Source of the DNA: Streptomyces sp. NRRL F-525
GTDB lineage: Bacteria > Actinomycetota > Actinomycetes > Streptomycetales > Streptomycetaceae
Length of the DNA stretch: 19,983 nt
Assembly: GCF_000716605.1 (NCBI RefSeq)
Contig: NZ_JNXE01000068.1
Coordinates: 1 to 19,983, forward strand
Reading direction: 5' to 3'
Notes under the pieces: generated by a model
Databases searched by the model: none
What the model saw: only the letters and a program-made list of their open reading frames with translations
Told to the model about the DNA's origin: nothing
Part shown: positions 944 to 15,048 of the stretch, one piece after another
How the letters are laid out: each line of letters begins with the position of its first letter
Numbering within the stretch: position 1 is the first letter of the stretch
Made by a program: the position numbers and the translations under genes

Positions 944-1525
944 CTACGTGTCTTCGTGCGCTTGAGGTAGGGCATACGTGAACTCCTTGCCGCCGTGTTC
1001 GGGCCCGGGGGCGCGTTCGCGTTTGAGTGCTCCCGCTTCGACTAGGCGTTTGAGTCGGTTGTTGGCGTTGGGCAGGGAGATTTGCAGTGCTTCGGAGAGA
1101 GCGGTGGTGCGGAATGTTCCGAGTTTTCGTGCTTGCTGATAGGTGTCGGCCAGTACCGCTGCATCGCCGAGCAGGTCGTGGGTAGCGGCGTCGACCGCGA
1201 TCTGCTTGCGGCGTTCGAGACAGACGGTGACCGCATCACGGGTCTCTTCGTTGAGGCCGACGAGTTGTACGCCCTCGACGTCGTTGTCTCCCGCGGCCAG
1301 CGCGACGTAGAACTTGCCGAGGAACTCGTCGGTGAAGCTGTTCGTCATCGCTTCAACGCCTGTGAAGTCGATGGTGAGCAGGGCTGCCGGTCCGGCGCTG
1401 TGGAGCTGTTTTTCCAGTTCGCTGCGTACGGTGATGCCGGTTGTGCGGGTGAACAGGAAGGTTCCGAAGCCGTGCACGGCGAATGTGGGCGATGCTTTTT
1501 GCTTCGTCGGGTTCATTGAACGCAT
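944..1525 (-). CDS. STAS-like (DUF4325-type) protein with C-terminal winged helix
   Basis: This 193-residue protein has two parts. Residues about 20-110 look like the STAS-like DUF4325 fold: alternating strands and helices, with TIDFTGVEAMTNSFTDEF at about 51-68 typical of the core strand and following loop. Residues about 125-188 look like a winged helix-turn-helix, with TALSEALQISLPNANNRLKR as the recognition region and a basic wing (KRERAPGPEHGGKEF). DUF4325 proteins commonly sit next to GHKL ATPases, as here: the ATPase gene ends only 15 bases upstream on the same strand, so the two are probably co-transcribed. By analogy with anti-sigma/anti-anti-sigma pairs, the STAS part may be a partner or target of the ATPase and the HTH an output domain; this is inference. 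The start at 1525 has no strong ribosome-binding site, and the ATG at 1516 is an alternative. The roughly 100 bases downstream (841-943) show no gene. Confidence 0.7.
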   Translation of the reverse strand: MRSMNPTKQKASPTFAVHGFGTFLFTRTTGITVRSELEKQLHSAGPAALLTIDFTGVEAMTNSFTDEFLGKFYVALAAGDNDVEGVQLVGLNEETRDAVTVCLERRKQIAVDAATHDLLGDAAVLADTYQQARKLGTFRTTALSEALQISLPNANNRLKRLVEAGALKRERAPGPEHGGKEFTYALPQAHEDT

Positions 1526-2392: not shown

Positions 2393-2521
2393 GGTCTATC
2401 AGGATGCCAGGCGTTTGCTATGGGGCGGCGCGCGTTCATGTGTTCGGGCGTGTCGCATGGGTGTGATCGGCCTCGTGCTACGCTTTCATTGGCTTCAATG
2501 AACACGTGAAAGGAGTCTGGG
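2393..2521. promoter_or_regulatory. divergent promoter region between GHKL pair and ubiquitin-like operon
   Basis: This 129-base gap separates two divergent start codons and must hold both promoters. On the plus strand a TACGCT hexamer at 2479-2484 could be a -10 element; I see no good -35 at the right distance. An inverted repeat follows directly (2485-2502). A strong ribosome-binding site, AAAGGAG (2509-2515), lies six bases before the ATG at 2522. The minus-strand start at 2392 has no obvious ribosome-binding site. Confidence 0.5.
2485..2502. promoter_or_regulatory. candidate operator, TTCATTG-N4-CAATGAA
   Basis: TTCATTG (2485-2491) and CAATGAA (2496-2502) are perfect inverted 7-base arms around GCTT, placed just after a possible -10 box and just before the ribosome-binding site of the ubiquitin-like operon. 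The AT-rich site stands out in GC-rich DNA. The nine bases TTCATTGAA recur at 1512-1520, at the start of the winged-helix gene. This fits a repressor site, possibly for that winged-helix protein; this is inference. Confidence 0.4.
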
Positions 2522-2800
2522 ATGCCTGACACCCCCGACGAGTCCGCGGAGCGCGGACTCCACCGCGAGTACAAGATCATCGTCAACACCCGCGAGAAGA
2601 CCGTCGACCACGACGAGCTGTCCTTCGACGAGATCGTCCGGCTGGCCTTCCACCCGGTGCCCACCGGCCCGAACGTCGTCTTCACCATCGGCTACCGGCA
2701 CGCGGCGCAGCGCCCGGCCGAGGGGACGCTGGCCGTGGGCGGCCACATCAAGATCAAGAACGGGACGACCTTCAATGTCACGCAGACTGACAAGTCGTAG
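2522..2800 (+). CDS. ubiquitin-like protein, multiubiquitin family (single domain)
   Basis: This 92-residue protein matches my knowledge of the bacterial multiubiquitin domain (a beta-grasp, ubiquitin-like fold). Key features are EYKIIVNTREKTV (16-28), DELSFDEIVRLAF (31-43), the conserved TGPNVVFTIGYR (48-59), and the C-terminal KIKNGTTFNVTQTDKS (77-92). It has one beta-grasp domain after a short acidic N-terminal tail, whereas relatives can have several in tandem. The chain ends in Asp-Lys-Ser, not Gly-Gly, which appears usual for this family but makes classical C-terminal conjugation unclear. An AAAGGAG ribosome-binding site six bases upstream supports the start. The next gene, the predicted E1/E2 enzyme, starts 26 bases before this stop codon, so the two are translationally coupled. 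Predicted role: the modifier protein of a ubiquitin-like conjugation system. Confidence 0.88.
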   Translation: MPDTPDESAERGLHREYKIIVNTREKTVDHDELSFDEIVRLAFHPVPTGPNVVFTIGYRHAAQRPAEGTLAVGGHIKIKNGTTFNVTQTDKS

Positions 2801-3962
2801 CGCCGACCTCAAGCGTCTCCAGGACGAGGGGTTCGAGGTCGAGGTGCACGGCGGCTACCTGGTTGTCGGCCACGTGCCGTACGTGACCGACGACCGCACC
2901 GTCCGCTACGGCCGCCTGGTGTCAGAGCTGACCCTGAGCGGCGACGTCACCGCAGCACCGAGCACCCATGTGGTGCACTTCAGCGGGTCGACGCCGTGCG
3001 ACCACGAAGGCCGCCCGCTGGAGCAGATCATCAACACCCGCTCCCCCAGGCTGCTGGCCGACGGCCTCCCGGTCGACTTCGACTTCTCCAGCAAGCCGCC
3101 CAGCGGCGGCTACGCGGACTACTACGAGAAGATGTCGACCTACGCCGCGATCCTGTCCGCCCACGCCCAGGCGATCGACCCCGGGGCGACGGCCAAGACC
3201 TTCCCCGTGGTGACCTGCGAACCCGAGGACGACTCCGTCTTCCGCTATCTCGACACCGCCTCCAGCCGGGCCGGCATCAGCGCCGTCACCCAGCAGTTGG
3301 AGCGCAACCGGGTGGCGATCGTCGGCCTGGGCGGCACGGGCGCCTACATCCTGGACCTGGTCGCCAAGACCCCGGTGCGGGAGATCCACCTCTTCGACGG
3401 CGACCGCTTCCTGCAGCACAACGCCTTCCGGTCGCCCGGCGCGGCCACGGTGGAAGACCTCCGCGGCGGGCCGCAGAAAGTCGACTACCTCGCCGCCATG
3501 TACGGGAAGATGCGCCGCGGCATCATCCCCCACTCGGTGTATCTCGACGAGGCGAACGTCGCGGAGCTGCGCGGCATGGACTTCGTGTTCCTCTCGATCG
3601 ACCGCGGCCCCGCCCGGAAGCTGGTGGTCCACGCGCTCGAGGAGTACGGCATCGCCTTCGTGGACGTCGGCATGGGCGTGTACGAAGGCGACGGTTCACT
3701 GGCCGGCCTGGTGCGGGTCACCACCAGCACCCCAGAACAGCGAGCGCACGTCCATGCGATGGGACGGATCCCGTTCGGGGACGAGGACGAGAACAACGAG
3801 TACGCCCGCAACATCCAGATCGCCGACCTCAACGCAGTCAACGCCGCGCTCGCGGTGATCAAATGGAAGAAGTTCTGCGGCTTCTACGCCGACCTGGAAC
3901 ACGAGCACCACAGCGTGTACCAGATCGACGGCAACGTCCTCACCAACGAGGACACGACATGA
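2775..3962 (+). CDS. fused E2-like/E1-like ubiquitin-activating protein (DUF6791-ThiF)
   Basis: This 395-residue protein has two parts. Residues about 1-150 match the N-terminal domain found fused to bacterial ThiF proteins (DUF6791, described as E2-like). It includes VVHFSGSTPCDHEG (66-79), where C75 is a candidate catalytic cysteine. Residues about 165-395 are an E1/ThiF adenylating domain: the nucleotide loop GLGGTG (184-189), FDGDRFLQHNAFR (207-219, with D208, D210, N216 and R219), K235 and D276. I see no CxxC zinc pairs and no cysteine at the usual ThiF position; the only cysteines are C75, C148 and C368. By homology it would adenylate the C-terminus of the preceding ubiquitin-like protein and pass it on through C75. 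The start MSRRLTSRSADLKRL fits family N-termini and overlaps the upstream gene. The stop overlaps the next gene by four bases (ATGA). Confidence 0.87.
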   Translation: MSRRLTSRSADLKRLQDEGFEVEVHGGYLVVGHVPYVTDDRTVRYGRLVSELTLSGDVTAAPSTHVVHFSGSTPCDHEGRPLEQIINTRSPRLLADGLPVDFDFSSKPPSGGYADYYEKMSTYAAILSAHAQAIDPGATAKTFPVVTCEPEDDSVFRYLDTASSRAGISAVTQQLERNRVAIVGLGGTGAYILDLVAKTPVREIHLFDGDRFLQHNAFRSPGAATVEDLRGGPQKVDYLAAMYGKMRRGIIPHSVYLDEANVAELRGMDFVFLSIDRGPARKLVVHALEEYGIAFVDVGMGVYEGDGSLAGLVRVTTSTPEQRAHVHAMGRIPFGDEDENNEYARNIQIADLNAVNAALAVIKWKKFCGFYADLEHEHHSVYQIDGNVLTNEDTT

Positions 3963-4387
3963 CCACCGCTCGCCTGGCGCACACCTTCGTCGACTGCTTC
4001 CCCGACCAGCTGGAACCCGGCACGGTGTACGTCTCCATCCCGTATGCGACCGTGGCGCACCTGTGCTGCTGCGGCTGCGGAAACGAAGCCGTCACCCCGC
4101 TCGGCCGCGCGGAGTGGAAACTCACCTTCGACGGCGAATCCATCTCCCTGCACCCGTCCATCGGCAACTGGAGCTTCCCCTGCCGGTCGCACTACTGGAT
4201 CCGCAACAACACCGTGCACTGGGCCCGGCGCTGGTCCGACAAGCAGATCGCCGCGAACCGCAGCGGCCGCGGCGCCGTCGATGACCCGCACACCCCGGCC
4301 GGGAACCTCCAGGAGGCGGCTCCCGTGCCCGCCGAGCGACGCCTCACGCCTCTCCTTCGCTGGCTGAACGCACGGTTCCGCCACTGA
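3959..4387 (+). CDS. DUF6527-type Cys/His-rich protein of the ubiquitin-like operon
   Basis: This 142-residue protein starts at the ATG within ATGA, overlapping the upstream stop. Its core, HLCCCGCGNEAVTPL (34-48) followed by SIGNWSFPCRSHYWI (67-81), matches the DUF6527 family that accompanies multiubiquitin and ThiF genes. H34, C36-C38, C40, C75 and H78 are well placed for a zinc site. The last ~50 residues (from about 93) are low-complexity and basic at the end. The function is unknown. A zinc-binding adaptor or E3-like partner that selects targets for the modifier is a reasonable guess because the operon contains no other candidate, but no sequence feature proves it. Confidence 0.8.
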   Translation: MTTARLAHTFVDCFPDQLEPGTVYVSIPYATVAHLCCCGCGNEAVTPLGRAEWKLTFDGESISLHPSIGNWSFPCRSHYWIRNNTVHWARRWSDKQIAANRSGRGAVDDPHTPAGNLQEAAPVPAERRLTPLLRWLNARFRH

Positions 4388-4399
4388 CCTGGCGGAGGA

Positions 4400-4415
4400 G
4401 ACCCCGGCCGGGGTC
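4400..4415. terminator. possible transcription-end palindrome after the ubiquitin-like operon
   Basis: GACCCCGGCCGGGGTC is a perfect 16-base palindrome 12 bases after the stop of the DUF6527 gene. There is no T-run, and a hairpin would have to sacrifice central pairs for a loop, so a terminator role is only plausible. The remaining sequence to 4573 shows no gene. Confidence 0.3.
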
Positions 4416-4573
4416 GGGAACTTTGCCGAGGCCGACTCCAGCACTCTCTGGAACCCCAGCATTCCGCCCTGCGGTCAGCGGAGGAGGGCGCGGAACACGG
4501 GCACGCTGACTTCGCGGCTCGCGACTCCGGCGAGAATGGCTGCAGCCGCGCATGCGTTTCGCCCGCCCTTGCG

Positions 4574-7009
4574 CTACGCGAGAGAGACCGGCTGTGCGGT
4601 GTCGTCGGTCCAGTCGCCGTCGAAGAGCGGGGCGATGAGTGCGTGATGCTCCTCGGGGAGCCGGCCGGTGCGTCGGTGGGTGCGGGCCTTGGCGAACCAG
4701 GGGCCGAGCTTCACCGTCTCGCCGTCGACGAGGATCTTCTCGCGGGCGGTGGGGGCACGTCCTTCGCGGGCGATGAAGAACTCCAGGAGCTGGGCGGTCT
4801 GTTCGAAAGTCCGGCGGGGTCGGCGGGGCGGGGTGAGGGGGTTGGTGTCGGGGGTGAGACCGATCTCGGTGAGAAGGTCTTGCTGGCGGGGGTGGAGGGT
4901 GGTGAAGCCGGTGAGCTGTCGGTGCAGCCAGCGTCCGGCCTTGACCGGGCCGATCAGCGTGTCCAGGTGCAGGGTGGCCGGGTCATGGCCGGCGGTGAGG
5001 TGGGCGCGGAGCGCTTGGTATTTGCGGTGCCAGTCGGGTCCGTGCGGGAGCTGCCAGTCGGGGTCGATGGCCGCGAGTGCCTCGGCTCGGGCGGGGTCGA
5101 GCCGGTCCTTGGCGGCCAGGGAGCGCTGTTCGGCCAGGAAGGTGCCGCCGGGGGCCGTGGCGGGGATGGCGAGGTGGCCGTGAGCTCGGTGGTAGTCGGT
5201 GACGGTGGTGAGGTTGGCGCGCCAGGCGGCCTCGTGCTTGTTCCAGATCATGCCCAGGGCGTCGAGTTCGGTGATCCAGGCGGCGTCCAGGCGGCCGGCG
5301 GCGTGGGCATCGCGCATGCCGGTGATGAAGGAGCCCAGGGTGTAGCCGGTGGGGTCTACGTGGTCGGCGGGGACGTCGAGGTGGCCGTATTGGTCGTGGA
5401 AGGACTGGGCGGCTGCGAGGCCTTCGCGGCGGGGGCGGGATGTGGTGTCGCGGGGGTCGAAGGTGACCAGGTCCATGGCGCGGGCGATGCGTTCGGGGTG
5501 GACGGTGAAGTCGAAGTGCCAGCGGTGCTGGATGAGGCGGCTGGTCTCCCTGGAAAGTCGGTTGGCCTTGTCGGGCAGGCGCTCGGCGATGCGGTGGTCG
5601 TGGCTGGCCAGGGCGGTGGTGATCGCCCACACCGGCTCGTAGGGGGTGCCCAGGATGTCCTGTGGGTCGGCGCCGGGCGGGATGTAGACGGGGATGATCA
5701 GGCTGGCGATCTTGCCGCTTACCGACAGGCGCAGGGCGCGGCCGAGGGCCTGGACGCAGCGGCGTACGGAGCGGGTGGGGTCGGCGAAGACGATCGCGTC
5801 GACGCTGGGGATGTCGATTCCCTCGGAGATCAGTTTCGCGTTGGCGAGGATCGCATGGGGCGCGGCCGAGAAGTCGGCGAAGATGTCGGCGCGTTGCTGC
5901 GGGGTGTGCTCGCCGTGGACGAAGAACAGTTCCGGGTCTGTGTCGGGGCACAGCTCGGGGGCGGTGCGGCGCAACTGGCGCAGGGTGTGGCCGAGTTCGC
6001 GGGCGAAGCGTTTGGCGTCCTCGACGAGGTTGAAGTAGACGAGGATCCGGTGCAGTTGGTGGTCGGTCAGGGCTTTGAGGACCGCGAGGTGCAGGGCGGT
6101 GGTGCGTTGTGCGTCGTCGGTGCCGGGGCGGGTGTGGCCGTTGTCGTCGGTGTCGGGGGTGGGGAGGTTGAGGCGGGTGCGCAGTTCGGTGTCGGTGAGG
6201 GTGGGGATCACGATGCGGTAGTCCGCGGCCCGGCCGTCCGCGACTGCCTGTGCGAGGGGGTACTCGTGGATCTTCTTGCCGTAGACGGCCTCGTTGTCCA
6301 TCGAGTTGGCGTAGGAGTCCGGGTCGGGTGCTGCGGGGTGCCGTCGGCGGGGGCGGGTGGTGTCGGCGGACTCCGAGAGGTCTGGTGCGGCGATGAGGCG
6401 GGGGGTGGCGGTCATGTACAGGCGTCGCTCGGCGCGGATGCGGGTGGCGTCGTTGACGGCGGCCCATTTCTTGTCGGCGCGGCCGGCGATGCGGTGGGCT
6501 TCGTCCATGATCGCGAGGTCGAACGGGGGTACGTCGAACCGGCTGTGCCGGGTGTTCTCGATCTTGTCGAGGGAGTCGTAGGTACAGATCACCGTCAGGG
6601 CCGGAATCTGGTCCGCCCCCTCCCCCGTCACCGACATCAGGCCGGCCAGGGCGCGGAAGTCACCGGTCGAGCCGACCCGGTGGGCCACCAGGGCGTCATG
6701 GCCGGAGGCATCCATCGAGGACACGATCAGCATGTGCTCGGTGCGCCCGTCGGCACGCCAGGCCAGCGCGGTCTGCGCGGCCAGGTCCAGCGTCGGCACC
6801 ACGAACAGCACCAGCCGTGCGTCGAGCTCGTCGGCGATCCGGATCGAGGCCAGGGTCTTGCCGGTACCGGTGGCCGACACGTACAAGGCGCGTGTGCCGG
6901 GCCGGCGCAGATGCCGCACCGCTCGCCGCACTCCCTGTTCCTGGTCCGGGAACAACTGGGCCCGTTCGGGACGGCCGGGCCAGGACGGGGAGAGGACGGC
7001 GGTACTCAT
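4574..7009 (-). CDS. subtelomeric DEAD/DEAH-box helicase with helicase-associated repeats
   Basis: Starting at the ATG at 7009 the protein has 811 residues. An ATG at 7018 is also possible, and the frame is open to 7225, but the upstream part lacks family character. Superfamily 2 helicase motifs are clear: ATGTGKT (about 46-52), VVPTLDLAAQ (motif Ia), DEAH (169-172), TATPR (200-204), SEGIDIPS (395-402) and QALGRALR (420-427). The C-terminal half holds about four helicase-associated (HA) repeats (roughly 530-590, 593-653, 659-718 and 733-803), recognisable as aromatic-rich units such as YGHLDVPA and HGHLAIPA. This architecture is that of the helicases found near the ends of Streptomyces linear chromosomes and plasmids (TtrA type), which have been linked to conjugal transfer. 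The position ~4.6 kb from the palindromes agrees. It likely acts on DNA in the cytoplasm; the exact role is unproven. Confidence 0.85.
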   Translation of the reverse strand: MSTAVLSPSWPGRPERAQLFPDQEQGVRRAVRHLRRPGTRALYVSATGTGKTLASIRIADELDARLVLFVVPTLDLAAQTALAWRADGRTEHMLIVSSMDASGHDALVAHRVGSTGDFRALAGLMSVTGEGADQIPALTVICTYDSLDKIENTRHSRFDVPPFDLAIMDEAHRIAGRADKKWAAVNDATRIRAERRLYMTATPRLIAAPDLSESADTTRPRRRHPAAPDPDSYANSMDNEAVYGKKIHEYPLAQAVADGRAADYRIVIPTLTDTELRTRLNLPTPDTDDNGHTRPGTDDAQRTTALHLAVLKALTDHQLHRILVYFNLVEDAKRFARELGHTLRQLRRTAPELCPDTDPELFFVHGEHTPQQRADIFADFSAAPHAILANAKLISEGIDIPSVDAIVFADPTRSVRRCVQALGRALRLSVSGKIASLIIPVYIPPGADPQDILGTPYEPVWAITTALASHDHRIAERLPDKANRLSRETSRLIQHRWHFDFTVHPERIARAMDLVTFDPRDTTSRPRREGLAAAQSFHDQYGHLDVPADHVDPTGYTLGSFITGMRDAHAAGRLDAAWITELDALGMIWNKHEAAWRANLTTVTDYHRAHGHLAIPATAPGGTFLAEQRSLAAKDRLDPARAEALAAIDPDWQLPHGPDWHRKYQALRAHLTAGHDPATLHLDTLIGPVKAGRWLHRQLTGFTTLHPRQQDLLTEIGLTPDTNPLTPPRRPRRTFEQTAQLLEFFIAREGRAPTAREKILVDGETVKLGPWFAKARTHRRTGRLPEEHHALIAPLFDGDWTDDTAQPVSLA

Positions 7010-7135
7010 ACCGGCCATGTTCCCAGCAGTGACGGGGCGGATGGGAGAGATGCGCTCGGGTCTGGGCATCGCACTGGCCGTGCTTGCCCGTCCGGGGGTT
7101 TCAGGCACCGTGGTCCGGGGGTGTTGTCGGACCGG

Positions 7136-7740
7136 CGTGTGACGATGCGGTGGAGTACCTGGGAGGTACGGGCTTTGGCGATCGAGTGGAACCGCCGCTG
7201 GCCTTCGCCCAGCTCGTCGAGGCACTGCTGCACCGCATGTTCGATGACAGCAGGCAGGTGGTCGTGGTCAACGGGCGCGGTGGTGACGGCGGTATCGACG
7301 TGCAGGTTACCGGCGATGCCGACTTGCGGGTCTTCCAGCTCAAGTATCGCCCGGACGGCTTCCCCGGCTCGCTCGGGGGCCGTAGGACAGCGATCAAGAA
7401 GTCGTTCCGGCGGGCCATGGCGCATCACCCGGCGGAGTGGACGCTGGTGGTGCCGTGCACGCCAACGGTCTCCGAGCGGACCTTCGTCGACAAGTTCGCC
7501 GACTAACTACCAGCGGCGATTTCAGTCTTGGACCGATCCAATCTGGACTGTCACTTCGCCGCACACGCCGATCTGGAGGCCAGCTTCACCCGCGATCAGT
7601 TGCGGGAGGCCGCCAAGGACTACGGCCAGGAAAAGGCTCTCCTGCTGAGTTCGGGCGATCTCGTGGAGCGTGTCCGTGCACAACGTGTTGGCCTGAGTCC
7701 AGTAAGTCGCACTCGGTGGCAAGCTGACGTACTGCGGTAG
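7136..7740 (+). pseudogene. broken restriction-endonuclease-like gene
   Basis: The plus-strand frame contains a convincing nuclease core: FAQLVEALLHRMFDDSRQ, then GRGGDGGIDVQV and LRVFQLKY. This is the G-G-x-D plus Q-x-K pattern of Mrr/PD-(D/E)XK-type restriction endonucleases. The frame hits a TAA at 7504-7506, yet the same frame continues after it with protein-like sequence (LPAAISVLDRSNLD, then LEASFTRDQLREAAKDYGQE) to a TAG at 7738-7740. So a single in-frame stop breaks the gene. After about 7695 the sequence no longer looks protein-like, which suggests a truncated 3' end. The true N-terminus may lie in another frame, where a GTG at 7136 reads VTMRWSTWEVRALAIEW; if so, a frameshift occurred near 7195. 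The gene is divergent from the helicase. Nuclease inactivation is probable, though a truncated peptide from the first part is possible. Confidence 0.6.
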
Positions 7741-7959: not shown

Positions 7960-8162
7960 CGGCAGTCGAACGTGAGGCAGACGCAGCGTACATACACCAC
8001 CGGCACTGGTTCGCCACCCGCAGCGAGGGCCGGCTGAAGATCGCTACGTGGATCACGGACTTCTACAACGCTCGGAGGCTGCACAGCGTGTGCGACTTCG
8101 TCAGCCCGGTGGAGTTCGAGCAGCGGTACTGGGCTCAGCAAGTCTGGCAGCAAGCAGCGTAA
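7960..8162 (+). mobile_element. IS3-family transposase remnant (C-terminal end only)
   Basis: The plus-strand frame ending at the TAA at 8160-8162 reads YIHHRHWFATRSEGRLKIAT followed by WITDFYNARRLHSVCDFVSP and VEFEQRYW. This is the typical C-terminus of IS3-family transposases (integrase core, the FYN-RR-HS-SPVEFE pattern). Sequence upstream of about 7960 does not continue the catalytic core, so only the last ~60 residues remain. I found no terminal inverted repeats. It marks past insertion and decay at the border between the subtelomeric region and the biosynthetic cluster. Confidence 0.7.
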
Positions 8163-8330
8163 ATCGTCTCCACGCTGCGAGGGGATTGGCAGGTCCGGGG
8201 AATCGTCGTTGCACCACCCGGCCTCGGTGAGCCACCGCCCGAAGGACTGCGTAAGGGCCGCATTAGTCGTGGCATCAACGATGAACCGGGCGCGGGCCTC
8301 CGCATCCGGGACAACGACAGGAGCCTTTTC
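8163..8330. promoter_or_regulatory. upstream region of the barrel-protein gene, possible minus-strand gene remnant
   Basis: This gap must hold the promoter of the gene at 8331, whose ribosome-binding site AGGAG lies about eight bases before the ATG. I see no clear -35/-10 pair. On the minus strand the same stretch reads a protein-like segment (DAEARARFIVDATTNAALTQ, then SFGRWLTEAGW) without a recognisable family. It may be another gene fragment or chance. Confidence 0.3.
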
Positions 8331-8855
8331 ATGCGTATCACCGCACGCAGTGGGCGGTACGGTATCGGTCTTTTCGCGGCTTGTGCCGTCGGGGCCACAT
8401 TCACCGCCGTTCTCTCCCCGACGCCCGCCGCCGCGGGCCCGGACCTCGGCTCGCCGCGCTGCGTCAGCTTCACGGCGCTGAACGAGAAGGTGCTCAGTGC
8501 CACCAGTACCGACAACGACCCCAAGGGGCTGAGCCTCACCGACAGCGGCGGCTACACCAACGCGCTGATCGACGCGCACGGCAAGCAGATCGGTACCGCG
8601 ACCGGATCCAGCGTCGCCGTGCTGGTCCGGGCCAGCGACAACCACGTGATGGCCTTCAACACCAACGTGGACAAGCTGATCGGCGGCGACGTCACGGAGA
8701 ACTCGGTGATGGACGCCACCGGCACCGTGGCCGGCGCCACCGTCACCGAGCCCGCGGTCGGCACCAGCGGCCGCTACCTCGGCATGACCGGTGCCCGGAC
8801 CTACCGCCGGATCGACCCGCAGACGTACGTGTCCAGCATCGTCCTGTGCCACTGA
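8331..8855 (+). CDS. AbyU-like beta-barrel (allene-oxide-cyclase-fold) protein, candidate spirotetronate [4+2] cyclase, with signal peptide
   Basis: This 174-residue protein begins with a classical signal peptide: basic MRITARSGR, the hydrophobic stretch 11-28 and an Ala-rich cleavage site near PAAA-G (33-36). The mature ~139 residues resemble the small barrel cyclases of spirotetronate pathways, of which AbyU (about 140 residues) is the best known. Diagnostic stretches are ALIDAHGKQIGTATG (78-92) and VGTSGRYLGMTGARTYRR (143-160); AbyU, from memory, has closely matching IGTSSG and GVSGRYLGLTG motifs. C44 and C173 are the only cysteines in the mature part and could form a disulfide joining the two ends, in keeping with export. 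It lies directly upstream of abyA-type tetronate genes, which favours a cyclase role. Alternative: an unrelated secreted AOC/dirigent-like protein, common in Streptomyces. AbyU itself is not known to be secreted. Confidence 0.65.
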   Translation: MRITARSGRYGIGLFAACAVGATFTAVLSPTPAAAGPDLGSPRCVSFTALNEKVLSATSTDNDPKGLSLTDSGGYTNALIDAHGKQIGTATGSSVAVLVRASDNHVMAFNTNVDKLIGGDVTENSVMDATGTVAGATVTEPAVGTSGRYLGMTGARTYRRIDPQTYVSSIVLCH

Positions 8856-8902
8856 GGCTCGGACGGCACGGACTTCCGCAGCCGCTGAGCAGGTGACCCG
8901 CC

Positions 8903-8928
8903 CGGACCGGCAGGTCCGAGCGACGCTC
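8903..8928. terminator. two small hairpins after the barrel-protein gene
   Basis: CGGACC (8903-8908) pairs with GGTCCG (8913-8918), and GAGCG (8918-8922) with CGCTC (8924-8928). Both lie in the 117-base gap before the KASIII-like gene. There is no T-run. They may weaken read-through or be incidental. Confidence 0.25.
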
Positions 8929-8972
8929 GGCGGCGACCGGCAGCCAGCCCCAATCCCCTGAGAAGGGACCCG

Positions 8973-10004
8973 ATGGACGCCCCCGAGATCCACATCCTGT
9001 CCGTGGGAACCGCACTCCCCGGACCCCCCGTGGACAACGCCACCCTGGCCCGTCAGCTCGGCACGCACCAGCAGTTCGAACAGTGGGTGGACACGTTCAT
9101 CGGCACCCGCACCCGGCACCTCTCGGTTGACCTGGAGACCGGCGAGGTGAACCACTCGCTGGCCGACCTGGGCACCACCGCGGGCGGCCGGGCGCTGGCG
9201 GCGGCCGGCCTGGAAGCCTCCGACATCGACGTGATCGTGATGGGCACGGCTACTCCCGACGCACTGATGCCCGCGACGGTCAACCTGATCGCGGACCGGC
9301 TCGGCATCGACGGCATTCCCACCTACCAGTTGCAGTCGGGCTGCGCCGGCGCCGTGCAGGCCCTGGACGTGGGCCGCGAGATGCTGCTGACCGGCCGGCA
9401 CACCACGGCGCTGGTCATCGGCGGCGACGTGTGCGCCAAGCACCTCGACATCGACATGGACGTGTCGAGCATGGCGCCGGCGCAGCTGGTCAACGTGGTG
9501 CTGTTCGGCGACGGAGCGGGCGCGGCGGTGCTCAGCACCAGGCCGACCCCCGGCTCAGTCACCATCAAGGCAGTGCTGAACCGGCTGACCGGCCTCGGCC
9601 GCGCCCCCGGCCAGGTCATCGAGTGGTTCGGCCTGGCCGACCGTGCCTCGGACCGGCCGGCCGGCATGGAGGACTACAAGGCCATCGAGGAGTCGGTGCC
9701 GGTGATGGCCGGCGAGATCCTCAAGGAGCTGCTGGACACGCTGGGCTGGCAGCAGGCCGACCTGGACTTCCTACTCCCGCCGCAGTTGTCCGGCCGGATG
9801 ACGAAGCGGATCGTGGAGCGCCTGGCGGTGGCCGACGCCCAGGAGGTCAGCTGCGTTCAGGACACCGGCAACAACGGCAACGCGCTGGTCTTCTTCCAGC
9901 TGGAACGCGCCCTGGAGCGGATGGGACCGGGCGATCGCGCCATCGCCGTCGCGGTCGAGTCCAGCAAGTGGATCAAAGCTGGGTTCGCGTTGGAGAAGGT
10001 CTGA
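8973..10004 (+). CDS. KASIII (FabH)-like tetronate-forming enzyme, AbyA1 type
   Basis: This 343-residue thiolase-fold protein has the KASIII nucleophile in QLQSGCAGAVQ (C124), the VLFGDGAGA motif (176-184) and the C-terminal DTGNNGNA (297-304), whose Asn fits the catalytic asparagine. The usual catalytic His (PHQAN in FabH) is replaced: here the sequence is LLPPQLSGRM (268-276), with Pro270 at the His position. That fits an enzyme that does not run the normal decarboxylative condensation. In characterised tetronate pathways (RK-682, agglomerin, abyssomicin) the homologue joins glyceryl-ACP to the beta-ketoacyl chain, forming the tetronate ring and releasing it from the PKS. The start is supported by AAGGGA just upstream. 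It is followed after three bases by fkbH and heads a tightly packed operon. Confidence 0.85.
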   Translation: MDAPEIHILSVGTALPGPPVDNATLARQLGTHQQFEQWVDTFIGTRTRHLSVDLETGEVNHSLADLGTTAGGRALAAAGLEASDIDVIVMGTATPDALMPATVNLIADRLGIDGIPTYQLQSGCAGAVQALDVGREMLLTGRHTTALVIGGDVCAKHLDIDMDVSSMAPAQLVNVVLFGDGAGAAVLSTRPTPGSVTIKAVLNRLTGLGRAPGQVIEWFGLADRASDRPAGMEDYKAIEESVPVMAGEILKELLDTLGWQQADLDFLLPPQLSGRMTKRIVERLAVADAQEVSCVQDTGNNGNALVFFQLERALERMGPGDRAIAVAVESSKWIKAGFALEKV

Positions 10005-10007
10005 GTC

Positions 10008-11912
10008 ATGTCAGCAACCGAAGCCGCGTCCCCCGTCCCGGCCGCCGCACCGAACGCCACGCTGCTTGACCTGCACCGCTCCGGCGCTCTCGTCACTGAT
10101 TACCCGCAGGTCGGCGGGCTGCTGACGGATCTGGACAGCAGCGGTCTTGCCCACGCCGGGCAGTTGCTCGCCCGCCTCGACCCAGACGACGTGCTGGCTG
10201 CCCACCCGGCCACCCCGGTCGTGTCGGTCGCGGTCACCGGCCACGGCACGCTGGCCACCCTGGTGCCGGCGCTGACCGCGGAGTGCGCCCGGCACGGCTT
10301 GCTGCTGCGCGCCCACCAGTCGACGTTCGACAACTACGTCTTCGACCTGACCGACCCGGACAGCGCGCTCTACGCGGTCCGGGCCGATCTGACGCTGTGC
10401 CTGCTGGACCACACGGTGGTCTTCGACGCGGTGCCGTCGCCGTGGCGGCCCGAGGACGTCGCCGACGCGTTCGACACGAAGCTGGCGCTGATCGAGAAGC
10501 TGGTGGCCCGATTCGGGTCCGCCGGCAGCGGCACCCTCGTGCTCAACACCCTTTCGCTGCCGTCCCGTTACCCGCGCCAGCTGCTGGACCACCGCTCCCG
10601 GGCCCGGCTCGGCGCGATCTGGCGCGAGGCCAACGCGCGGCTGCTCCGGCTGGCCGAGGAGCACACGTCCCTGGTGGTGCTCGACCTGGACCCGGTCACC
10701 GCCGACGGAACCGCGGCCACCGACCCCAGGCTGAGCGTGTACGCCAAGGCGCACCTGTCCACCGAGCTGCTGGCGCACTACGCCAGGGACGTCGGTCACC
10801 TGGCCCGGCATGTGTCGGGGCGTACGAAGAAGTGCCTGGTGGTGGACCTGGACGAGACGGTGTGGGGCGGTGTCCTCGGTGAGGACGGCGTCGAGGGCAT
10901 CCAGGTGGCCGACAGCTACCGCGGCGAGGCGTTCCGCCAGTTCCAGCAGGCGGTCCGGCAGATCGCGTCGCAGGGCGTACTGCTGGCCGCGGTGAGCAAG
11001 AACGACGTCGAGCGGGTCCAGGAGGCATTCACGCATCCCCGGATGACGCTGGCCGCCTCCGACTTTGTCCGGATCACCGCCAACTGGCGGCCCAAGCACG
11101 AGAACCTGCTCGAACTCGCCGCCGACCTCAACCTCGGTGTGGACAGCTTCGTGTTCGTCGACGACAGCCCGTACGAGTGCAATCTGGTCCGCCGTCAGCT
11201 GCCCGGTGTGGCCGTGGTACCGGTGGGTACCGAACCGGCCCAGCACATCGGGAAGGTGCTGGCCGACGGCTGGTTCGACAGCCGCGAGCTGACCACCGAG
11301 GACATCACCCGCGTCTCCAAGTACCGCGACGAGTTGGTCCGCAACGACTTCCTGCACACTTTCGAGTCGATCGAGGACTACCTGCGGGAGCTGAAGATCG
11401 AGGTGCGGCTGGCCGAGCCCGCCGACACCGAGGTGTCCCGGATCTCCCAGATCACTCTGCGCACCAACCAGTTCAACCTCACCACGCTCCGGCTCCAGCC
11501 CTCCGAGGTCCGCGCGATGCGGGACGACGGTGACAGCCTGGTGCTGGGCATCGCGGCCGCCGACCGGTTCGGCGACAACGGCCTGGTCGGCGCGATCTTC
11601 GCCCGGCGCACCAACGACGAGCTGCACATCGAGAACTTCCTGCTCAGCTGCCGGGTGTTCTCCCGTGGCATCGAGCACGCCTGCCTGTCCGCGCTGCTGC
11701 GGCTCGCCCGGGACAGCGGCCTGTCCGCGGTGTGCGGCATGTACCGGACCAGCGCCAAGAACAGCATCGTCAAGGACTTCTATCCGCGCTATGGATTCCA
11801 GCACTTCGCGGGCTACGGGCAGACGGTCGTCTTCCGGCACAGCCTGGCGGCTATCGCCCCTGCGCCCGAGCACATCCACCTGACCGAGAACCTCGAAGGG
11901 GCACTCCAGTGA
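10008..11912 (+). CDS. FkbH-like glyceryl transferase/phosphatase, AbyA2 type
   Basis: This 634-residue protein has an N-terminal SGNH/flavodoxin-like region (about 1-265). A HAD-superfamily phosphatase core (about 275-410) follows, with CLVVDLDETVWGGVLGEDG (276-294; D280 and D282 as the DxDxT acids), AVSKND (328-333) and FVFVDDSPYE (381-390). A GNAT-like C-terminal part contains TLRTNQFNLTT and SCRVFSRG. This is the full-length FkbH architecture. Characterised members take 1,3-bisphosphoglycerate, remove phosphate and load D-glyceryl onto a stand-alone ACP. Here that ACP is the next gene, overlapping by four bases (GTGA). The glyceryl unit becomes the C3 part of the tetronate, or in other pathways a methoxymalonyl extender. 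The absence of methoxymalonyl dehydrogenase genes beside it and the presence of the KASIII-like gene point to tetronate formation. Confidence 0.92.
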   Translation: MSATEAASPVPAAAPNATLLDLHRSGALVTDYPQVGGLLTDLDSSGLAHAGQLLARLDPDDVLAAHPATPVVSVAVTGHGTLATLVPALTAECARHGLLLRAHQSTFDNYVFDLTDPDSALYAVRADLTLCLLDHTVVFDAVPSPWRPEDVADAFDTKLALIEKLVARFGSAGSGTLVLNTLSLPSRYPRQLLDHRSRARLGAIWREANARLLRLAEEHTSLVVLDLDPVTADGTAATDPRLSVYAKAHLSTELLAHYARDVGHLARHVSGRTKKCLVVDLDETVWGGVLGEDGVEGIQVADSYRGEAFRQFQQAVRQIASQGVLLAAVSKNDVERVQEAFTHPRMTLAASDFVRITANWRPKHENLLELAADLNLGVDSFVFVDDSPYECNLVRRQLPGVAVVPVGTEPAQHIGKVLADGWFDSRELTTEDITRVSKYRDELVRNDFLHTFESIEDYLRELKIEVRLAEPADTEVSRISQITLRTNQFNLTTLRLQPSEVRAMRDDGDSLVLGIAAADRFGDNGLVGAIFARRTNDELHIENFLLSCRVFSRGIEHACLSALLRLARDSGLSAVCGMYRTSAKNSIVKDFYPRYGFQHFAGYGQTVVFRHSLAAIAPAPEHIHLTENLEGALQ

Positions 11913-12139
11913 ATACCATCGACGACTTCATCGCGATCCTGCGCGATGAGCTCGGTCTGCCCGTCACCAGCGACGACGCCGCCCGCCGGCTGGATGAGGT
12001 GCCCGGCTGGGACTCCGTGCACCTGGTGTGGCTGCTGACCGTGCTGGAGCAGCGCACCGGTCGTAGCATCTCGCTGCCCGACGTGCTGGAGGCCCCGAGC
12101 ATCGGCGGCATCTACGACGTGGTGGCGGTGGCGGCGTGA
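11909..12139 (+). CDS. stand-alone acyl carrier protein for glyceryl, AbyA3 type
   Basis: This 76-residue protein starts at a GTG overlapping the fkbH stop (GTGA). It has the ACP helix II signature GWDSVHLVWLL, with S36 as the phosphopantetheine site, preceded by an acidic N-terminal helix (IDDFIAILRDELGL). Its length and fold pattern are typical of discrete carrier proteins. By position and family it accepts glyceryl from the FkbH protein and presents it to the KASIII-like enzyme. It overlaps the next gene by another GTGA. Confidence 0.9.
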   Translation: MNTIDDFIAILRDELGLPVTSDDAARRLDEVPGWDSVHLVWLLTVLEQRTGRSISLPDVLEAPSIGGIYDVVAVAA

Positions 12140-12891
12140 ACATCACCCCGCTCGCCCGCGAACGCCGCCACACCCTGTTCTTCCTGCGCGAGATCCGCTC
12201 GGTCATGCCGGTCTTCCTGGACACCGAGGTCGACCTCGGCACTGTCCTGGCGCACCGGGAGCTGGCCGGCGGCGAAGGCGACCGGTTCTCGGTGGTCAGC
12301 TACGTGCTGCACGCCGCCTCCCGCGCGCTGGCCGACCACCCGCAGGCCAACGCCGCGATCGGCGGCCGGCTGCGGCAGCGCGTCGCCGGCTACCCGTCGG
12401 TCAACGTCAAGCTCACCCTGGACAAGTCTCTCAACGGGCAGCGGGTGGTGCTCGCTGCGGTGCTGCCTGCGGTGGACACCGCCGGGCTGCGGGAGATCCA
12501 GAAGCTGGTCGAGCACTACCGCGACGGCAGCGCCGACACCATGGCCGAGTTCCAGGGCGTACGCGGTATGCAGCGCCTGCCCCGGCCACTGGGCGCCGCA
12601 CTGTTCCGCCTCGGGGTACGGCCGCTGCGGCGCCGCGCGGAGACCTTCGGCACGCTGGCCGTCACCTCGCTCGGGCACCGCCCGGTCGACGGCTTCCACT
12701 CGGTCGGCGGCACCGCCGTCACCCTGGGCGTGGGCCGTTTCATCGACCGGGCGGTGGTCAAGGACGGCGCGATCGTTGTTGCCCCGGTGCTGCGGCTGAA
12801 CATGGCCTTCGACCACCGGGTCGTGGACGGCGCCGAGGCCGCCGACCTGCTGGCCGACATCAAGCGGAACCTCGAGGAGTTCGCCGCATGA
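12136..12891 (+). CDS. 2-oxoacid-dehydrogenase-type acyltransferase, AbyA4 type
   Basis: This 251-residue protein consists of the catalytic domain of dihydrolipoamide acyltransferases only, without lipoyl or E1/E3-binding domains. The catalytic motif FDHRVVDG (225-232) gives H227 and D231. FGTLAVTSLG (171-180) matches the strand before the active site in the family. In agglomerin and abyssomicin biosynthesis the homologue acetylates the hydroxymethyl group of the tetronate, preparing it for elimination by the partner encoded next. The start is a GTG overlapping the ACP stop, and the stop overlaps the next start (ATGA), so the pair is translationally coupled. It could in principle transfer another acyl group. 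Confidence 0.88.
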   Translation: MNITPLARERRHTLFFLREIRSVMPVFLDTEVDLGTVLAHRELAGGEGDRFSVVSYVLHAASRALADHPQANAAIGGRLRQRVAGYPSVNVKLTLDKSLNGQRVVLAAVLPAVDTAGLREIQKLVEHYRDGSADTMAEFQGVRGMQRLPRPLGAALFRLGVRPLRRRAETFGTLAVTSLGHRPVDGFHSVGGTAVTLGVGRFIDRAVVKDGAIVVAPVLRLNMAFDHRVVDGAEAADLLADIKRNLEEFAA

Positions 12892-13982
12892 ACGACATCG
12901 ACGAGCTGAAGCAGTTCGTGCAGGTGCACGCCCGCACCCAGGGCATCGCGCCCGCCCAGTACAGCGAGATGCTGGGCCGTATCCGCACCGACGACGAGGG
13001 CATGCCCGGCTCCTGGGCCGTGGAGTGGAGCCGCTCGGCGCGGGCGCTGGCCGAGCAGGGCAGGCACCTGGACGCGGTGCGGTACTACAACCTGGCCCGC
13101 TTCCCGTACGTGGACGGACCCGCCCGGCAGGAGGCGCTGACCAACTGCGTCGGTGCCTTCGAACAGTGGGCCGCCGACTTCCCGTTCATCGAGCGCCGCG
13201 AGCTGAAGCTGCCCGGCGGCCGGGTTCGCTGCTGGACCAGCGGCCTGTCCGCGGCGCGGCCGCTGCCGGTGCTGCTGATCTGCGGCGGCATCGTCAGCAT
13301 CAAGGAGCAGTGGGCGCAGGTGCTTGGCGCGGTCCGGCGGCTCGGCATGGCCGCGGTCGTCGTGGAGATGCCCAGCGTCGGCGAGAACTCGCTCCCGTAC
13401 ACCGCCGACAGCTGGCAGCTGCTGTCCGGTGTGCTGGACGAGCTGGCCCACGTGGCCGACGTGACGCGGACGTACGCGATCGCGCTGAGCTTCAGCGGCC
13501 ATCTGGCCCTGCGCTGCGCGGTGAACGACCCCCGGATAAAGGGCGTCGTCACAGCCGGCCCGCCGGTACGGGACTTCTTCACCGACACCGACTGGCAGGC
13601 CGGGGTGCCGCGCGTCACCGTGGAGACGCTGGCGCACCTGACCGGCACCAAGCCCGCCGAGACGCTGGGGCAGCTGCGGGACTGGGCGCTGAGTGTGGAC
13701 GAGCTCGAAGCCCTGGACATCCCCGTGCACTGCATGGCCAGCGCGCGCGACGAGATCATCCCGCCCGGAGACGTGGAACTGCTGCGCCGCCATGTGAAGG
13801 GCGTCCACCTGGTGACCAACGACGACGTGCACGGCTCGCCGGCGCACGCCGCCGAGGCCCGGCTGTGGACGGTGCTGTCGGTGCTGCGGATGCGGCAGGC
13901 CGGCGGGATGCAACGAGCGGTGATCGGCGCGCTGTTCCAGGCGACGCGGGTCCGCAGGCGACTCGCGGGCACGCCCGCATGA
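12888..13982 (+). CDS. alpha/beta-hydrolase, acetate-eliminating, AbyA5 type
   Basis: This 364-residue protein has a helical N-terminal part (about 1-100) and an alpha/beta-hydrolase core of the FrsA/DUF1100-like kind. LLICGGIVSIKEQW (129-142) forms the oxyanion region. ALSFSGHLALR (199-209) is the nucleophile elbow, with S203. D288 (SARDEI) and H315 (NDDVHGS) complete a plausible triad. The elbow reads S-x-S-G instead of the canonical G-x-S-x-G. In tetronate pathways the homologue (AbyA5, Agg5) removes acetate from the acetylated intermediate to create the exocyclic methylene that later acts as dienophile. The gene overlaps its neighbours on both sides by four bases. Confidence 0.87.
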   Translation: MNDIDELKQFVQVHARTQGIAPAQYSEMLGRIRTDDEGMPGSWAVEWSRSARALAEQGRHLDAVRYYNLARFPYVDGPARQEALTNCVGAFEQWAADFPFIERRELKLPGGRVRCWTSGLSAARPLPVLLICGGIVSIKEQWAQVLGAVRRLGMAAVVVEMPSVGENSLPYTADSWQLLSGVLDELAHVADVTRTYAIALSFSGHLALRCAVNDPRIKGVVTAGPPVRDFFTDTDWQAGVPRVTVETLAHLTGTKPAETLGQLRDWALSVDELEALDIPVHCMASARDEIIPPGDVELLRRHVKGVHLVTNDDVHGSPAHAAEARLWTVLSVLRMRQAGGMQRAVIGALFQATRVRRRLAGTPA

Positions 13983-14785
13983 CGGAGGCCACGGGCCGGT
14001 CGACCGACGTGTCCGACATGTCTGGCGCATACCTGCCGGTGCCCCCGGATCCCGGCGCGCGGCTGCGGCTGTTCTGCTTCCACCATGCCGGCGGGGCGGC
14101 CTCGCTGTTCCGGGACTGGCAGCAGGCGCTGGGCCCGGACATCAGCGTGGTCCCCGTACAGCTGCCCGGCCGCGAACAGCGGGTCCGCGAGCCGCGCTTC
14201 ACCAGCATGGAAGAGCTGCTGCCCGAACTGCACGAGCGGCTCGGCCCGGCGCTGGCCGGGCCGTACGCCTTCTACGGCCACAGCATGGGAGCCCTGCTGG
14301 CCCGCAATCTCGCCCAGCGGGTGGTGCGTTGTGGGGGCGAGCCGCCGGTGAGTCTGCTGGTCGGCGCCTATCCCGCGCCGCACCGCCGGCCCGCGCTGGC
14401 CGGGGCGCTGGCGCTCGGCGACCAGGACCTGGCCCAGTGGCTGGTCGACATGGGCGGCATGTCGCCGATGCTGCTGGGCTATCCCGAGTGGCTGCGGATG
14501 GCCGTCGGCATACTCCGGGACGACCTGCAGGTCTGCGAGAGCCACCACGACGGCCAGGAGCAGGAGGCGCGGCATTCGCCGCTGTCCTGCCCGATCCATG
14601 TCTTCACCGGCGCGGACGACGCGCTGGTGCCCGAGCAGGACGCCGCCGCCTGGGCGCAGCACACCCTCGCGACCGCGACCGTGCAGGTCGTCCCCGGCGG
14701 GCATCTGTTCGTCCGCGACTCCCCGGCGGTGTTCCTGGACCGGCTGGTCGCGGTACTGCGGGAAACAGTGCCCACGCCGGGATAG
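13979..14785 (+). CDS. type II thioesterase
   Basis: This 268-residue alpha/beta-hydrolase has the type II thioesterase landmarks: LFCFHHAGGAAS (31-42), QLPGREQR (61-68), the nucleophile elbow YGHSMGA (99-105, S102), GADD (211-214) and GGHLFV (240-245, H242). Such enzymes usually remove stalled or wrong acyl groups from PKS carrier proteins. The gene overlaps the hydrolase stop by four bases, so it belongs to the same operon, and abyssomicin-type clusters also carry one (AbyT). The first ~20 residues (to about GAYLP) are a flexible extension. An ATG further in is possible but would lose the coupled start. Confidence 0.9.
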   Translation: MTEATGRSTDVSDMSGAYLPVPPDPGARLRLFCFHHAGGAASLFRDWQQALGPDISVVPVQLPGREQRVREPRFTSMEELLPELHERLGPALAGPYAFYGHSMGALLARNLAQRVVRCGGEPPVSLLVGAYPAPHRRPALAGALALGDQDLAQWLVDMGGMSPMLLGYPEWLRMAVGILRDDLQVCESHHDGQEQEARHSPLSCPIHVFTGADDALVPEQDAAAWAQHTLATATVQVVPGGHLFVRDSPAVFLDRLVAVLRETVPTPG

Positions 14786-15048
14786 TCCACGCCAGCGGAG
14801 ACCGCACGTCCGTCGGCCCGCTGAGCCTGAGGGCGCCGGCCCGCACCGGACCGCGTACGAAGCAGGCACAAGAGCAGGCACGACAAGCACGCGCGGGACC
14901 GTACGAGACCGCGTGTTAGATCGCGCGAAGAACGTCGTTAGCCGCGCCGGAAAAACTGGTGCCGGCATCAGAAACCGGCTGCGGCCGCCGCGTTGTTGCG
15001 TACCGCGACCGCACCCAGACTGTTCACCACGAGGGGCAGTGAGACGCG
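14786..15048. promoter_or_regulatory. non-coding gap before the PKS gene
   Basis: This 263-base gap separates the tetronate operon from the PKS and is the only gap of its size within the cluster. It probably carries the PKS promoter. I can point to no convincing -35/-10 pair or regulator site. A purine-rich GAGGGG (15031-15036) lies about a dozen bases before the PKS ATG and may be its ribosome-binding site. No gene is visible. Confidence 0.45.

Follow-up and report, generated by a model that had tools for sequence, protein, structure and literature searches.

A ubiquitin-like operon beside a CapK/CapS-like regulator pair in Streptomyces sp. NRRL F-525: a possible DNA-damage-inducible sister branch of the Bub pathways

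What does a three-gene ubiquitin-like operon do in a streptomycete, and when is it switched on? The question is raised by a stretch of DNA from Streptomyces sp. NRRL F-525, analysed here as the window: the entire contig C68 (NZ_JNXE01000068.1), 19,983 bases long, from an assembly of 241 contigs and 10.94 Mb. At 2522-4387 it encodes a ubiquitin-like modifier, a DUF6791-ThiF enzyme resembling ubiquitin-activating (E1) enzymes and a DUF6527 protein, and next to this trio lie two genes resembling the regulators capK and capS. We postulate, with a probability of roughly 0.55, that the trio is a DNA-damage-inducible protein-tagging operon, and that it is a branch sister to the Bub pathways (BubCD of Citrobacter and its relatives), without JAB domain and without separate ubiquitin-conjugating (E2) enzyme. 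The parts of the trio are as follows (C75 was proposed as a thioester cysteine in the original prediction for this locus).

2522-2800, plus strand: ubiquitin-like modifier of 92 residues, one Multi_ubiq domain (PF14452, E 1.8e-14), C-terminus FNVTQTDKS
2775-2800, plus strand: 26-base overlap encoding the modifier tail and the enzyme N-terminus in two frames
2775-3962, plus strand: DUF6791-ThiF enzyme (E1-like) of 395 residues (DUF6791, PF20590, E 2.7e-57; ThiF, E 5.9e-12)
2997-2999, plus strand: codon of enzyme residue C75
3801-3803, plus strand: codon of enzyme residue Y343, the candidate E1 acceptor tyrosine
3959-3962, plus strand: 4-base overlap of the enzyme and DUF6527 genes
3959-4387, plus strand: DUF6527 protein of 142 residues (PF20137, E 1.3e-25), predicted to bind metal (C36, C38, C40, C75, H78)

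The trio is a real operon. The coordinates of the three genes and of both overlaps agree exactly with the original prediction, and the four families that it had named for a profile check (PF14452, DUF6791, ThiF and DUF6527) were all matched above their Pfam cut-offs; the enzyme moreover passes the NCBIfam model NF004805 (E 4e-178). For comparison, we used the best 80 of at least 541 relatives in genome contigs (among at least 596 pattern matches) together with three viral loci. Directly after the enzyme gene, 82 of these 83 loci carry a DUF6527 open reading frame (ORF), the miss being L056, so the predicted linkage of the three genes is conserved. Since, in addition, a start codon at the 26-base overlap recurs in 81 of 83 evaluable loci, the arrangement is not due to chance.

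The class to which the operon belongs is already known as row 6e (polyUbl) of Iyer 2006. As described in that paper (PMC1779556), it comprises one to three ubiquitin-like domains, an E1-like protein with an N-terminal JAB or another, in some cases uncharacterised, domain, and a metal-binding signature C-x(3)-C-x(35-38)-H-x(2)-C. The trio shares the ubiquitin-like protein, the E1 with an N-terminal domain and a small protein predicted to bind metal, and its single ubiquitin-like domain (PF14452 is matched once) lies within the range of the class; the domain X of Iyer et al. is probably DUF6791. The present branch is a variant, sister to the recently described Bub pathways, without JAB (a Pfam scan matched no JAB family in any trio protein) and without separate E2 (the E2 family of Bub, Prok-E2_E, PF14462, has no match in the genome of the window).

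As to when the operon is switched on, the strongest functional clue lies just upstream (944-2392), in a gene pair that went unnamed in the original prediction.

944-1525, minus strand: CapS-like repressor with STAS (DUF4325, 25.6 bits, cut-off 23) and winged helix-turn-helix (HTH) parts, the latter with matches below the Pfam cut-off; S63 is the candidate phospho-acceptor
1512-1529: operator 1, at the capK/capS junction, TTCA-N1-TGAA nested with TTCA-N10-TGAA
1541-2392, minus strand: CapK-like STAS-GHKL kinase without N-terminal HTH, N-box N147 (HATPase_c_2 below cut-off, 14.9 of 27.4 bits)
2476-2484, plus strand: possible extended -10 element (TGCTACGCT), directly before operator 2
2485-2502: operator 2, before the operon, TTCATTGGCTTCAATGAA

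PMC13373217 (EMBO J 2026) describes the CapK/CapS pair as a switch through which DNA damage controls Bub and other immune operons, in which CapK, activated by single-stranded DNA, phosphorylates the STAS serine of the repressor CapS; of 443 capKS loci, 231 lie upstream of Bub operons, and the CapS sites are TTAA-N1-TTAA at the capK-capS junction and TTAA-N10-TTAA before the operon. The window pair agrees in its STAS-winged HTH and STAS-GHKL architectures, in the conserved serine (Ser at the S63 position in 6/6 aligned CapS-like proteins), in the N-box asparagine (6/6) and in having two operators, spaced by 1 bp and 10 bp, at equivalent locations. It differs in that it is divergent, whereas the published pair lies upstream in line, in its TTCA rather than TTAA half-sites, and in its shorter CapK (283 against 359 residues), which lacks the N-terminal HTH; according to the same source, deleting that HTH did not affect induction.

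The divergent pair, with a full-length CapK-like protein, recurs in L007 (Actinobacteria bacterium OV320), L009 (Streptomyces pilosus) and L011 (S. lincolnensis), and both operators are present in all four loci, the window included. Within 20-21 kb, each locus holds exactly two TTCAnTGAA sites, one per expected junction and each nested in TTCA-N10-TGAA, against 0.035-0.07 narrow sites per locus expected from mononucleotide shuffling. A longer composite operator pattern occurs once in the 10.94-Mb genome (at most one mismatch), and its backward control not at all. The possible -10 element follows TGnTACGnT in 4/4 promoters by eye, and no standard sigma-70 site was found. The region between capK and the modifier gene (2393-2475) contains two more blocks conserved among the four loci, namely CAGGATGCCAG, exact in three and changed by a single base in L009, and GGCGTGTCG, found in 4/4. 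Two other loci, L023 and L047, encode a CapK-like protein followed by a STAS-winged HTH-like protein, CapS-like by position and alignment, both in line (forward) with the trio, and have TTAA-N10-TTAA between capS and the modifier gene. A single BLASTP comparison of the CapK-like proteins of the window and L023 gave 4e-08; the window protein also matches part of the PADLOC DrmA model (33.5 bits). The putative CapK/CapS link, with its matching operators, is the best-supported new point of this analysis.

The 26-base overlap also marks the branch. Among 84 loci (80 genomic, three viral and the window), 83 could be evaluated, L088 being left out because it starts at the gene's own start. In 81, archaeal metagenome-assembled genomes (MAGs) included, the last 26 bases of the modifier gene open exactly with a start codon (78 ATG, one GTG and one TTG by script, with L058, an ATG, added by eye). 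The exceptions are L007, in which the register is kept, the codon is now CCG and the next start lies one codon further, and L060 (~4400-4530), in which the modifier and enzyme genes stand apart, yet both terminal peptide motifs are retained. In further Streptomycetaceae loci, ORF ends give 26 bases in 6/7 (L120-L125), and the ORF of L119 is drawn from an earlier start. Codon choice, scored in 79 distinct loci, suggests that selection is visible in both frames: the last serine codon is never TCC (0 in 78 TCN codons, 23.9 being expected from each gene's usage), and the valine codon is GTC in 74/76 (29.8 expected), although the probabilities of such biases should not be taken at face value, since the loci are related. 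In 63/79 loci the enzyme gene ends in xTGA, its stop overlapping a start codon.

How, then, might the modifier be handled? Its tail follows the consensus T-x-T-x-(K/R/Q)-S, with T in 81/81, S in 80/81 and no glycine; a PDB chain of the same family (9cd2) ends in VTQTDKS, and the window modifier likewise in TDKS. In this serine end the trio differs from Bub: the presumed modifiers of the Bub-type loci L146, L147 and L145, named by position, end in GNLG, GNFG and NPGIRR, and gave no match with the window modifier as query. The trio also differs in its modifier/E1 overlap, as in these three loci the presumed modifier gene does not overlap the gene after it. The enzymes, in turn, share the E1 fold. 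Fold searches of the model, with its predicted E1 fold, put BubCD first in the PDB match lists, and HHalign to the JAB-E1 proteins of L145, L146 and L147 gave a probability of 98.1%, with Y343 falling on the tyrosine of their GY motif. A single MoeZ sequence tried earlier as partner for the E1 domain yielded no useful alignment, so the Bub-type set was used instead. In Bub enzymes a tyrosine replaces the catalytic cysteine of E1, and the chemistry is reportedly of the oxyester kind; a PDB title records a BubCD Y370F mutant, Y370 being what we take to be the acceptor residue. In an alignment of 209 sequences of the present enzyme, Y343 is invariant, as are H65 and S105, and no conserved cysteine column was found in the E1 half. 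We consider the prediction of a tyrosine acceptor the most interesting point. The two kinds of enzyme differ at the N-terminus, where the window protein has DUF6791 and Bub proteins have JAB; we infer this JAB-E1 fusion as a mark of Bub from the class 6e text of Iyer et al., the name BubCD and L145 (Prok-JAB 17.6 bits, below cut-off).

For the DUF6527 protein, which also stands downstream in L145, seven positions are invariant in 48/48 rows (H34, C36, C38, C40, C75, S77 and H78). Its signature, C36-x3-C40-x34-C75-x2-H78, is in order and spacing slightly unlike the one printed by Iyer et al., and neither fold nor profile searches gave a usable PDB match. The L145 protein (62.8 bits) keeps C36, C38 and H78, has His at C75 and lacks H34, C40 and S77; this single sequence suggests that metal binding is likelier than catalysis by S77. 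Compared with Bil (BilABCD), another bacterial ubiquitin-like conjugation operon, which has separate E1, E2 and JAB-type genes, the trio has no E2 or JAB family match and a single Multi_ubiq stretch in place of a two-domain ubiquitin-like protein; further background is given in PMC11354881 and PMC12687455. The titles listed and passages covered in literature searches included no report of the branch's overlap, tyrosine or CapK/CapS link, and we do not claim that these are unreported.

The original prediction saw the enzyme as a fused E2-like/E1-like protein with C75 as thioester site. Such a classical relay, with DUF6791 as a diverged E2, now seems unlikely to us, even though C75 is the sole cysteine column well above half (198/209; the next, column 274, has 106) and the DUF6791 model shows helix, strands, helix. 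The residue is replaced in 11 sequences (S 5, H 4, F 1, R 1), whereas Y343, H65 and S105 are never replaced, which weakens the thioester proposal. Nor was the E2-like label upheld: DUF6791 has no E2 family match in Pfam, the PADLOC E1-E2 models cover only about residues 151-244, that is, the E1 part, and HHalign to the Bub E2 family gave a probability of 1.9%, not a significant match; the fold search says little about DUF6791, since it spans mainly residues 148-395. Somewhat more doubtful still is that DUF6791 is a peptidase-like stand-in for JAB, trimming the modifier or freeing targets, with TDKS a leader cut off before activation. The domain does occupy the JAB place of Bub enzymes, the trio lacks any JAB match, H65 and S105 would suit such a role, and Iyer et al. 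speculated so for an uncharacterised N-terminal domain (PMC1779556). However, conservation of the tail to its last residue would be needless in a discarded leader, the tail has no glycine, and inspection by eye showed no metal motif of the HxH type.

We regard it as improbable that no protein is conjugated at all and that the ThiF-type activation feeds a small molecule or sulfur carrier, for example for the nearby polyketide genes. Carriers of the ThiS/MoaD type end in GG, which the modifier tail lacks. Moreover, the top families listed for the nearest upstream genes elsewhere include no polyketide family, and the neighbours in other loci are HTH, M78 peptidase and helicase genes. By regular expression, an M78-type HExxH ORF (CapP-like) lies within 3.5 kb upstream in 37/80 loci, or 37/75 of those having at least 2 kb upstream. 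Pfam M78 was matched by 11/60 nearest and 18/59 second-nearest upstream ORFs, hand-picked from 79 and 77 after exclusion of duplicates, shorter ORFs and the loci with a divergent CapK/CapS pair. PMC4963859, published in 2016, gives DUF955 (M78) neighbours for 70% of PF14452 proteins and treats them as toxin-antitoxin loci; we read the HTH-M78 neighbours as CapH/CapP-like regulators instead. Like Bub, the branch would thus have CapK/CapS or CapH/CapP neighbours.

Returning to a DNA-damage-inducible sister branch of Bub, several observations weigh against it. A CapK-like protein occurs in only 5/83 fetched loci, and no CapK/CapS relative was found within the 16 kb read around 7/9 full-length copies in the Streptomycetaceae. 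The window CapK, besides lacking the HTH, stays under its Pfam cut-offs, and the window CapS resembles that of L047 in the winged HTH only. The capK/capS junctions of L023 and L047 have no TTAA site of 1- or 10-bp spacing, while several other short palindromes stand beside the cited ones, and L009 has one additional TTCA-N10-TGAA, inside capK. Y343 is one among many invariant residues, and the insignificant match of DUF6791 to the Bub E2 family counts here as well. Finally, when 110 genes near the trio and 110 far ones (5.5-10 kb away; 353 and 280 candidates) were compared with PADLOC, its families, capP apart, were not clearly commoner near the trio: capP was matched by 8 near genes and fell outside the far top 25, RmrA reached up to 5 near, and DISARM- and BREX-type families also occurred far. 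As just the top 25 families are listed per set, we claim no enrichment. A defence role remains plausible for this branch, as for Bub.

With these reservations, we envisage the following working. Gene order, overlaps, operator geometry, residue conservation and the predicted E1 fold come from the sequences themselves; the action of CapK and CapS, the oxyester chemistry and the translational coupling are carried over from relatives. At rest, a CapS dimer would close both operators (1512-1529 and 2485-2502); single-stranded DNA arising from damage or infection would activate CapK, CapS would be phosphorylated on S63 and released, and its own gene and the trio would be expressed. The 26-base overlap may ensure that modifier and enzyme are made together, and the 4-base overlap may add the DUF6527 protein by similar translational coupling. 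The E1 half would adenylate the C-terminal serine carboxylate of the modifier, which would be loaded on Y343 as an oxyester rather than on a cysteine as a thioester. As a guess, DUF6791, in which H65 and S105 never vary, would hold the modifier in place or relay it, and the DUF6527 protein, binding metal, would select the target or trim the bond. More tentatively, and in our judgement clearly less probable than the postulate itself, the branch could be a pathway without any catalytic cysteine, found across many bacterial phyla and in some archaea, in which a C-terminal serine is activated, held by the E1 tyrosine and passed on via DUF6791 (H65/S105) rather than an E2 of the UBC fold, with tail and enzyme start written in one 26-base two-frame sequence.

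Besides the regulator pair, the close neighbours of the trio are the following.

4574-7225, minus strand: ResIII/Helicase_C protein containing four HA stretches, its gene convergent with the trio
8331-19983: polyketide genes, with AOC-like and KAS III-like proteins and, by eye, a large modular synthase

The trio had been placed among nuclease and helicase genes near a telomere. The adjoining helicase gene bears out one part, while no nuclease family was matched by Pfam among the six window proteins scanned. As to the telomere, bases 1-1000 of the window hold one 12-bp inverted repeat (arms within 60 bases), which is no evidence either way, and in G385, G135 and G321, genomes that each consist of a single contig, the distance from the operon to the nearer end is about 0.18, 1.5 and 2.8 Mb. 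L007 (11971-15510) and L009 (11611-14712) carry long downstream ORFs of 1180 and 1034 residues, with no Pfam match at 1e-3.

The branch is widespread, and its distribution is sporadic and mobile. In a set of 5.77 billion proteins, relatives number at least 7,998 for the enzyme and 5,903 for the DUF6527 protein. By record titles, the best 80 loci come from Actinobacteria, Cyanobacteria, Bacteroidota, Proteobacteria, Acidobacteria, Chloroflexota, Planctomycetes, Nitrospirae, Verrucomicrobia, Elusimicrobia and others, and include two archaeal MAGs (L057, L085). Since many loci are MAGs, individual assignments could be mistaken. Full-length enzyme copies were found in 9/394 Streptomycetaceae genomes, in line with the predicted accessory nature of the operon; G196 additionally has fragments, and the other 12 family genomes matching at E <= 1e-3 have partial ThiF-region matches only. 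In a sample of the phylum, 3/396 genomes matched at E <= 1e-50, the own genome counted. The capS gene is likewise rare, in 4/394 family genomes: two by an intact trio, one by a decayed trio and one, partial, without trio. The decayed copy (L126, in G196) has a capS remnant beside enzyme fragments with a stop, retains DUF6527, has no capK or modifier match and lies near a relative of the window's HA-domain helicase; the partial capS (L131 in G052, ~8150-8540) matches from residue 62 onwards, and its genome has no match to the trio.

Relatives occur in 115/72,556 plasmid records, some near Tn7-like genes. On Klebsiella and Acinetobacter plasmids (L004, L005), the trio and a UvrD helicase gene lie near Tn7-like transposition genes, L005 also having a sigma-70 gene. 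A Rhizobium plasmid (L134, 2557-5046) carries near its trio a second Multi_ubiq operon, close to UvrD helicases, with a modifier whose last residues are GG, a Mov34/JAB protein and, by eye, a seemingly E1-like protein with CxxC. We rejected the idea of phage cargo: none of 50,697 phage records contained a relative, and IMG/VR gave five loci, of which L090 and L091 hold part of the gene only and were left out of the three viral loci used above.

Taken together, these findings tie a widespread, little-studied ubiquitin-like branch to a defined DNA-damage switch, which offers an inducer and a reporter for direct testing. As a two-frame coding element, the nearly fixed 26-base overlap is conserved unusually well and can serve as a simple marker for the branch, and L060 offers a natural experiment on separated modifier and enzyme genes. 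If true, the combination of a tyrosine oxyester, a serine-ended modifier, no JAB and no UBC-fold E2 would widen what is understood as ubiquitin-type conjugation.
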